A DNA stretch of 64,000 bases from Bdellovibrio sp. SKB1291214 (GTDB lineage: Bacteria > Bdellovibrionota > Bdellovibrionia > Bdellovibrionales > Bdellovibrionaceae), in the NCBI RefSeq assembly GCF_002209355.2, contig NZ_CP106855.1, positions 1,674,001 through 1,738,000 on the forward strand, read 5' to 3'. Of this stretch, positions 62,225 to 64,000 are shown one piece after another. Made by a program: the position numbers and the translations under genes. The notes beneath the pieces were generated by a model. That model was not told where the DNA came from, searched no databases, and was given only the letters and a program-made list of their open reading frames with translations. The stretch's first letter is position 1, and the number at the start of each line of letters is the position of its first letter.

Positions 62225-62989
62225 ATGACAAGTGCACTCCGTCTTGAAAACGTGACTGTGGCTTTTGACTCACACGTCGTGTTGCGCTCCGTAAATCTGG
62301 ATATAAAGTCCGGCGAAGCTTTTGTTATCGTGGGCCCCAGTGGGCAAGGTAAAACGACTCTACTTAAAACTCTTTCAGGCCTTGTAACCCCTCAAGATGG
62401 CAAAGTTTTTGTTGAACAAAACGCCTGGCTAACGCTGAGCAATAAAGAGCGCTTGCCGCAGCTTAAAAAGATGGGGATTTTGTTTCAAAAAAATGCCCTG
62501 TTTGATTCCCTGACCTCCCTTGAAAATATCTGTTTTCCTTTGCGTGAGACATCAACCCTGACGGAGTGGGAAATAACAAAAAAAGCGGAAAGTTTTTTAG
62601 ATGCCGTGGGCATTCCCCATGCACGTGATTTATATCCTGATGAAATCAGTGGAGGCATGCAAAAACGCCTAGGAATCGCTCGGGCATTGGCTCTTGATCC
62701 TAAGATCATTTTCTATGATGACCCGACTGCGGGTTTAGATCCGATAACTTCAAAAAAAATTATCTCTCTGATTAAGACTTTGCAGCAGCAAAATAATTCC
62801 ACAGTAGTCGCGGTGACGAATGATATGAATCGTGCTTATCAAATGGCTGACAGAATTGCGATGGTGGTGGATCAAGAAGTCATCGTCACGGGGACGCCTC
62901 AAGAAACAGAAAGCCATTCTGATCCACGCGTGCGCCAGTTTGTACGCGGTCTTCTGCAAGGGCCTTTGACGGCGCTTGACCCTGTGTAA
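62225..62989 (+). CDS. Mla-type ABC transporter ATPase 1 (degenerate catalytic site, intact signature)
   Basis: ATPase of an MlaF/Mkl-type lipid-transport ABC system. 254 residues. Walker A GPSGQGKTT (37-45), Q-loop Gln88, signature ISGGMQ (141-146), Walker B IIFYDD (161-166), D-loop GLDP, H-loop position TND (198-200). The catalytic Glu after Walker B is Asp166, and the H-loop His is Asn199. Its own composite site is thus degenerate, while its signature is canonical. Operon partner of the ATPase at 63006 (16-base gap) and the MlaE-like permease at 63737. A promoter is not obvious. Confidence 0.92.
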   Translation: MTSALRLENVTVAFDSHVVLRSVNLDIKSGEAFVIVGPSGQGKTTLLKTLSGLVTPQDGKVFVEQNAWLTLSNKERLPQLKKMGILFQKNALFDSLTSLENICFPLRETSTLTEWEITKKAESFLDAVGIPHARDLYPDEISGGMQKRLGIARALALDPKIIFYDDPTAGLDPITSKKIISLIKTLQQQNNSTVVAVTNDMNRAYQMADRIAMVVDQEVIVTGTPQETESHSDPRVRQFVRGLLQGPLTALDPV

Positions 62990-63005
62990 GTAAAGCACCT
63001 AAGAT

Positions 63006-63740
63006 TTGTTGGTGATTGAGTTCAAAAAGATCATTAAAAGATTTGGTGACCGCACAGTTCTTAACGGACTATCCGCTGTCATTCGCGAGGGCGAGATCGT
63101 TTTCATTCTGGGAACATCAGGAACTGGCAAATCTGTTTTACTGAAAAATCTTGTTGGATTGTTAACTCCGGATGAAGGTGAAATTTGGATCGACGGGCAA
63201 GAAGTTTCCAAATTTTCAGAGGAAGAATATCTTCCAATCCGAAAAAAATGCGGCATGGTTTTTCAGCACCCCGCTTTGTTTGATTCTCTGACGATTTTTG
63301 AGAACGTCGCTTTTGGCTTACGCAGACACTATGATTATTCCGAAGAAGTGATCCGCGAAAAGGTTGTGAAGTCGTTGCGCCTCGTGCATTTAAAAGATGT
63401 CGAAGAAAAACTTCCAGCGCAAATTTCATACGGTATGCAAAAACGTGTCAGTCTTGCTCGCACGATTGCACTTGATCCAAAAATTTTGCTTTTTGACGAG
63501 CCCACAACAGGACTTGATCCGGTAACGACGACCGCCGTGAATCAATTAATTTTAGATTTATCGCGCACGCTGAAAACTACATCCATCGTCGTCAGCCATG
63601 ATATGAATTGTGCTCTATCGATCGCAGACCGTATTATCGTTTTAGATAAAGGTCAGATTGTTGCAATGGGAACGCCGGCAGAGTTAAAAACTTCGCAAGT
63701 TCCCCTGGTTCAAGACTTTCTGGCTGAGGTTCTGGCATGA
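63006..63740 (+). CDS. Mla-type ABC transporter ATPase 2 (intact catalytic site, altered signature)
   Basis: 244 residues, similar to the preceding ATPase (PALFDSLT, GMQKR motifs in both). Walker A GTSGTGKSV (36-44), Gln87, Walker B ILLFDEP (Asp164, Glu165), H-loop His198 in VVSHDMN: all catalytic residues present. The signature reads ISYGMQ (140-145): the first Gly of LSGG is Tyr. The pattern is the mirror of the first ATPase. The start is TTG at 63006 (another TTG, then a GTG, follow directly); no good Shine-Dalgarno, so coupling with the upstream gene is likely. ATGA overlap with the permease. Confidence 0.92.
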   Translation: MLVIEFKKIIKRFGDRTVLNGLSAVIREGEIVFILGTSGTGKSVLLKNLVGLLTPDEGEIWIDGQEVSKFSEEEYLPIRKKCGMVFQHPALFDSLTIFENVAFGLRRHYDYSEEVIREKVVKSLRLVHLKDVEEKLPAQISYGMQKRVSLARTIALDPKILLFDEPTTGLDPVTTTAVNQLILDLSRTLKTTSIVVSHDMNCALSIADRIIVLDKGQIVAMGTPAELKTSQVPLVQDFLAEVLA

Positions 63741-64000
63741 TGTCTTTAATTATTCATGTCCTAGATGAAATCGGCGGCACTCTTTTGTTTCTAAAAAAGA
63801 TACTGCATACCGTTTTTGTCAAAAAGCTAAAAACACACGAAATATTTGTGCAAATTTGGAAGGTTTCTACGGAATCCTTTCCGACGACCGCTATGGCAGG
63901 ATTTTTCGTGGGTGCGATCATGGCGGTTCAGTTCGCAATGCCCATCCGTGAATTTGGAGCTTTGGGATTTTTAGGCGGACTTGCTACCAGCGCGACGTTT
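63737..64000 (+). CDS. MlaE-like lipid ABC permease, N-terminal part (cut by window end)
   Basis: First 88 codons from the ATG overlapping the ATPase stop (ATGA); a second ATG follows immediately. The N-terminus has an amphipathic helix, then STESFPTTAMAGFFVGAIMA, which is the MlaE-family membrane-segment motif. MlaE permeases move phospholipids between inner and outer membrane with MlaF, MlaB and MlaD; the remaining genes lie beyond the window. Confidence 0.85.
   Translation, partial: MMSLIIHVLDEIGGTLLFLKKILHTVFVKKLKTHEIFVQIWKVSTESFPTTAMAGFFVGAIMAVQFAMPIREFGALGFLGGLATSATF

Follow-up and report, generated by a model that had tools for sequence, protein, structure and literature searches.

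The two ATPase genes and their operon

We analysed a window of 64,000 nucleotides from Bdellovibrio sp. SKB1291214 (contig NZ_CP106855.1, positions 1,674,001 to 1,738,000 of the forward strand). Two genes for ABC ATPases, A1 and A2, lie at its end and head a five-gene operon of the order A1-A2-MlaE permease 1 (P1)-MlaE permease 2 (P2)-MCE (MlaD) protein. Most of this operon lies just outside the window. The features are given below, with the evidence for each in brackets.

62225..62989, + strand: ATPase 1 (A1), a MlaF/MceG-like ABC ATPase, predicted to form the Walker half of the degenerate site (ORF, sequence matches, fold)
62333..62356, + strand: A1 Walker A, GPSGQGKT, intact (sequence)
62648..62656, + strand: A1 signature SGG (residues 142-144), intact, predicted to contribute to the consensus site (invariant in the A1 alignment; 120/120 pairs)
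62720..62722, + strand: A1 Asp166 in place of the catalytic Glu (invariant, n=38 aligned A1 sequences)
62819..62821, + strand: A1 Asn199 in place of the H-loop His (37/38 aligned A1 sequences)
63006..63740, + strand: ATPase 2 (A2), a MlaF/MceG-like ABC ATPase (ORF, sequence matches, fold)
63111..63134, + strand: A2 Walker A, GTSGTGKS, intact (sequence)
63429..63431, + strand: A2 Tyr142 in place of the first signature Gly (ISYGM), predicted to contribute to the degenerate site (invariant, n=40 aligned A2 sequences)
63498..63500, + strand: A2 catalytic Glu165, intact (alignment; 120/120 pairs)
63597..63599, + strand: A2 H-loop His198, intact (alignment; 120/120 pairs)
63737..64000, + strand: P1, MlaE family, truncated by the end of the window; full gene at L006:3738-4520 (PF02405)
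L006:4517-5236, outside the window: P2, MlaE family (PF02405)
L006:5255-6031, outside the window: MCE/MlaD protein, 258 aa (PF02470)

The motifs of A1 are GPSGQGKT, ISGGM, YDDP (Asp166) and VTND (Asn199), and those of A2 are GTSGTGKS, ISYGM, FDEP (Glu165) and VSHD (His198), the latter numbered from the listed TTG. The ORF coordinates and residues on which the original prediction rested (Asp166, Asn199 and ISGG in A1; Glu165, His198 and ISYG in A2) were all confirmed. The Q-loop Gln and Walker A are unaltered in both proteins, and ATP binding by A1 is probably kept, its Walker A being intact. The true start of A2 is probably the GTG at 63012, two codons past the listed TTG, since the orthologues begin at the matching codon.

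For both ATPases the best PDB matches, by sequence and by predicted fold, were MlaF/MceG. The AF2 model of A1 (pLDDT 91.8) was closest to MlaF (6xbd), and that of A2 (pLDDT 93.3) to MceG (8fed) and then to MlaF. When the two proteins were scored against the MlaF equivalog NF008809, 185 and 204 bits were obtained, and the curated cut-off of 441 was not reached; they are consequently referred to as MlaF-like and not as MlaF proper. A1 is the faster evolving of the two, its mean column identity in the alignments being 60% against 69% for A2. The start of the MlaF-like C-terminal extension is kept in A1 (GPL, with Gly246 nearly invariant), and A2 ends earlier than A1.

P1 and P2 scored 201 and 215 bits against the MlaE permease family PF02405 (cut-off 22.5), and the MCE/MlaD domain PF02470 was found in the MCE protein with 69.5 bits (cut-off 25.1). 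With a predicted MlaE permease, MCE protein and MlaF/MceG-like ATPase, the operon meets the criteria of an MCE-type (type VIII) ABC transporter. The permeases are followed by a single MCE gene, and no gene that could be MlaB lies between permease and MCE protein. No match to PF05494 or PF04333, the families of the MlaC and MlaA partners, was found in the genome, while the controls were detected; the operon is therefore not a classical Mla shuttle. Directly 3' of the MCE gene lies a gene for a 217-aa protein (L006:6057-6710) with a signal-like N-terminus and no Pfam match, which is possibly an outer-membrane partner.

Distribution and gene order

P2 orthologues were present in 51/60 near relatives, in 93 of the 144 genomes of the class and in 108 of the 241 sampled genomes of the phylum (E<=1e-60). 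The loci surveyed comprised about 110 stretches and 80 further loci from named genomes. From these, 120 non-redundant A1/A2 pairs were compared, drawn from many genera and from several families and classes. It may be noted that the 120 pairs share ancestry and are not 120 independent tests; state changes are nearer to independent events.

The gene order A1-A2-P1-P2-MCE is nearly constant over Bdellovibrionota. In seven genomes A1 was not adjacent to the operon. Its absence there was rejected, as in 7/7 it was found, with the same motifs, kilobases upstream or on another contig. In several Bdellovibrio genomes (L050, L051, L053-L056 and others) A1 and A2 are separated by other sequence, about 0.5 kb long or longer; in L050 this contains a 136-aa frame that resembles a small membrane protein. 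A second ATPase-1-like protein was seen in L270 (G003:C283:17395-18141; LSGGM, VFYDDP, VTHS). It was set aside as contamination or a paralogue, the G003 assembly being fragmented with 4% contamination.

Among the best 80 loci of the named-genome scan, two-ATPase operons came only from contigs of Bdellovibrionota type, and single-ATPase operons from Acidobacteriota. As the scan used only two peptide patterns, the occurrence of two-ATPase operons in other phyla remains possible. A tblastn search of plasmids with A1 was uninformative: its hits were generic ABC ATPases, numbering in the thousands.

Asymmetry of the two ATP sites

Each ATP site of an ABC dimer is built from the Walker motifs and H-loop of one subunit and the signature of the other (PMC7756269). 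The original prediction held that an A1:A2 dimer would have one intact and one deviating composite site. When the motifs of the 120 pairs were read in this manner, asymmetry was found in every pair. The A1 signature was SGG in 120/120, and A2 had its catalytic Glu in 120/120 and its His in 120/120. No A1 combined the catalytic Glu with the H-loop His (0/120); one or both were always missing. Likewise, no A2 had an SGG signature, Tyr or Phe being present in all that could be read (one A2 signature was masked in the record). The composite site of A2 Walker/His and A1 signature is thus fully canonical in 120/120, while that of A1 Walker/H-loop and A2 signature deviates in Glu and/or the H-loop and in the partner signature. 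All recurrent substitutions fell in the site that had been predicted to carry them. In no homologue found did either ATPase by itself carry the complete set of catalytic residues; one that did would have spoken against the original prediction.

The make-up of the deviating site varies. Among the pairs counted from the same order or class, A1 had Asp with Asn in 35/35 and A2 had SYG in 35/35; a few further sequences had Asp with His (e.g., L155, which comes from one genome with L086). In A1 from outside the class, Glu with Asn or Glu with Ser was frequent, and Asp with Ser, Asp with Asn or Ser with His occurred sometimes; A2 had SYG or SFG. Overall, the H-loop His was present in three A1 sequences, and Glu was kept in some, so that neither position is fixed by itself. 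To judge from these alignments, the common condition is loss of the H-loop His together with an altered partner signature, and the change of Glu to Asp would have come later or repeatedly, since A1 outside the class often keeps Glu alongside an H-loop change. The site had been described as fully degenerate; this is more apt for Bdellovibrionia than for the phylum at large, since outside the class often only the H-loop of A1 is changed.

State changes were counted on trees built with the motif positions masked. The fewest changes required were 6 for the A1 catalytic position, 6 for the A1 H-loop and 7 for the A2 signature (19 in total), and 0 each for the A1 signature, the A2 catalytic position and the A2 His. 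As an ABC site is shared between subunits, a single composite site takes up all 19 changes. This confinement is the strongest evidence that the sequences offer for an A1:A2 heterodimer. All of the single MlaF-type ATPases that were sampled, in this phylum and in Acidobacteriota, were fully canonical (17/17).

The altered positions (partner signature, Glu to Asp, H-loop) are the known hallmarks of a degenerate site (PMC7756269). It could be argued that the heterodimer is real but that both of its sites hydrolyse ATP usefully, the asymmetry being drift without mechanistic meaning. Asp is a conservative replacement for Glu and can still permit slow hydrolysis at the catalytic position (PMC7756269), and some A1 proteins outside the class keep Glu. 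Against this, substitution of the signature Gly by Tyr or Phe coincides in one site with loss of Glu and/or His wherever a pair could be read, and the pattern is maintained across the phylum with no reversion to a canonical site. We regard this alternative as unlikely.

Evidence for one machine

In the trees, A1 and A2 were each set off by a supported branch (SH-aLRT 96 and 98), apart from the single-ATPase relatives, and the same was true of P1 and P2 (SH-aLRT 100 and 99). When genomes without P2 were searched, 19/20 had no A1- or A2-specific match, and in those 19 the best hits to the A1 and A2 profiles were the same canonical single ATPases. The exception, G036 (81% complete), keeps A1 without P2 or an A2-specific match. 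On these trees and profiles, each of the two ATPases and each of the two permeases is an old lineage of its own, and all four are largely present or absent together.

In one genome (L152/L259), A2 and P1 are fused in a single 580-aa frame (L259:1809-3548) with a linker of about 70 residues, and A1 and P2 remain separate genes. Other long frames that resembled fusions were rejected, as only this frame has two full domains of different subunits. The fusion suggests that A2 sits on P1. The two permeases, the matched presence and absence of the subunits and the A2-P1 fusion all support the asymmetric heterodimer as originally proposed, in which the physical 1:1 dimer is an inference. What is observed, at the level of sequence alone, is two divergent ATPase lineages with complementary motifs, which speak against an ATPase homodimer like that of MlaFEDB and Mce1.

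With two ATPases and two permeases, two separate homodimeric transporters (e.g., A1 with one permease and A2 with the other) are conceivable in principle; they would have one MCE protein in common, and both ATP sites of each would be half-defective. That A1 can be genetically separate from the operon, and that the A2-P1 fusion could self-dimerise, would be compatible with such an arrangement. However, an A1:A1 dimer would have two sites without Glu and/or His, and an A2:A2 dimer two sites with a blocked signature, so that neither has an intact site. Moreover, one A1/A2 composite site is invariant at every tested residue while the other drifts, and a single MCE gene follows the permeases. Separate homodimers are, in our judgement, quite improbable.

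The faster evolution of A1 and the greater degeneracy of its Walker half raise the further question of whether A1 is mainly a regulatory or structural pseudo-ATPase, with no need for a stable dimer with A2 in the core. Against this, A1 retains its signature, which is invariant, together with Walker A and Q-loop, as required to complete the A2 site, and A2 alone is without an intact site owing to its own signature. This role for A1 is very improbable. Finally, sequencing error, a pseudogene or chance substitution in one strain had nothing in its favour and is ruled out, since the same kind of substitutions occurs in all 120 non-redundant pairs.

Other MCE operons of the genome

The genome has three other MlaE operons. 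Two of these (L008 and L009) have a single canonical ATPase, and the third (L007) has a single degenerate one. The L007 operon (L007:4854-8653; G000:C1, about 2854853-2858652) has the order MlaE permease-ATPase-MCE, followed by an FtsX-like permease. Its ATPase is degenerate in almost every motif (VPGRL signature, Walker B DDP, D-loop GLGQ, H-loop SSYD, Q-loop FDYG), GKS being kept. Orthologues were recognisable in 48/60 relatives; 30 of these were read, and all 30 had similar motifs and kept the permease and MCE neighbours. By its motifs, it is a conserved putative pseudo-ATPase and the sole ATPase of its MCE operon.

Comparison with known systems

The MlaFEDB transporter (E. coli, P. aeruginosa, A. 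baumannii; type VIII) shares with the Bdellovibrio operon the MlaE permease, the MlaD-family MCE protein, the MlaF-like fold and the SGGM-type signature. It differs in having one kind of ATPase, which forms a homodimer (PMC7367683), and one kind of permease, whereas the Bdellovibrio operon has two of each and one degenerate site; the absence of MlaC/MlaA families and of a gene in the MlaB position is a further difference. Mycobacterial Mce1 likewise has two different permeases (YrbE1A/YrbE1B), and its ATPase MceG is the best structural match of A2. MceG, however, is a homodimer (PMC9882608), while the Bdellovibrio ATPases are two different, asymmetric proteins. Single-ATPase MCE operons, represented by L008 and L009 in the same genome and by Geothrix in Acidobacteriota, have permeases, ATPases and MCE proteins of the same families, but their one ATPase has all catalytic residues canonical, unlike the A1/A2 pair.

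The same Glu to Asp, H-loop and partner-signature changes, with the other site intact, are found in heterodimeric exporters (TM287/288, BmrCD, TmrAB, TAP, CFTR, MsRv1273c/72c) (PMC7756269). Those exporters have another permease class and their ATPase is usually fused, whereas in the Bdellovibrio operon the permease is of type VIII, the ATPases are separate and an MCE protein is present. Degenerate sites are thus well known in exporters; what is new here, as far as the literature was searched, is a predicted one-site design in the MCE lipid-transporter family. No description of an asymmetric ATPase pair in an MCE transporter was found in the open-access papers searched, which is consistent with the earlier view that such a system is undescribed, the literature as a whole not being covered.

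Proposed mechanism and significance

We consider it highly probable, from the sequence evidence taken together, that the operon encodes a type VIII/MCE ABC transporter of heteromeric build, in which one ATP site hydrolyses ATP and the other is degenerate and serves as a clamp; the heterodimer, the clamp, the lipid substrate and the direction are inferred. An A1:A2 ATPase heterodimer would sit on a P1:P2 heterodimer of MlaE-family permeases, for which there are no complex data, and a periplasmic MCE ring protein would be joined to this ABC core. The site of A2 Walker/His and A1 signature would hydrolyse ATP and power each cycle. The site of A1 Walker/H-loop and A2 signature would bind ATP, because the Walker A of A1 is intact, with slow turnover or none. 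It would act as a clamp that holds the ATPases together and makes the cycle asymmetric, as proposed for heterodimeric exporters.

The substrate is inferred to be, probably, a phospholipid or another envelope lipid. A three-component bridge has been proposed for Veillonella MlaEFD (PMC10665443), and by analogy a bridge of this type is a possible model for the A1/A2 transporter. In MlaF, the C-terminal extension grips the neighbouring subunit (PMC7367683). As A1 keeps the start of this extension and A2 ends earlier, it may be inferred that the grip is one-sided here.

A wider reading is put forward only tentatively, as a possibility that we would not count on: that Bdellovibrionota have evolved an MCE transporter in which the whole ABC core, ATPases and permeases alike, is asymmetric, with one ATP site staying occupied as a clamp, and that, taken with the L007 pseudo-ATPase, the ATP cycles behind envelope lipid transport in this phylum differ from all those described for Mla and Mce systems. 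It is not settled how the hydrolysis of ATP is coupled to the movement of lipid by MCE transporters, or which way the lipid is moved. With two different halves and one site off, each half could be labelled or mutated separately, so that coupling would become directly testable site by site. The operon would also represent a one-site ABC design that arose outside the exporter class, and living relatives preserve graded intermediates, in which the H-loop is changed and Glu is either retained or replaced by Asp.
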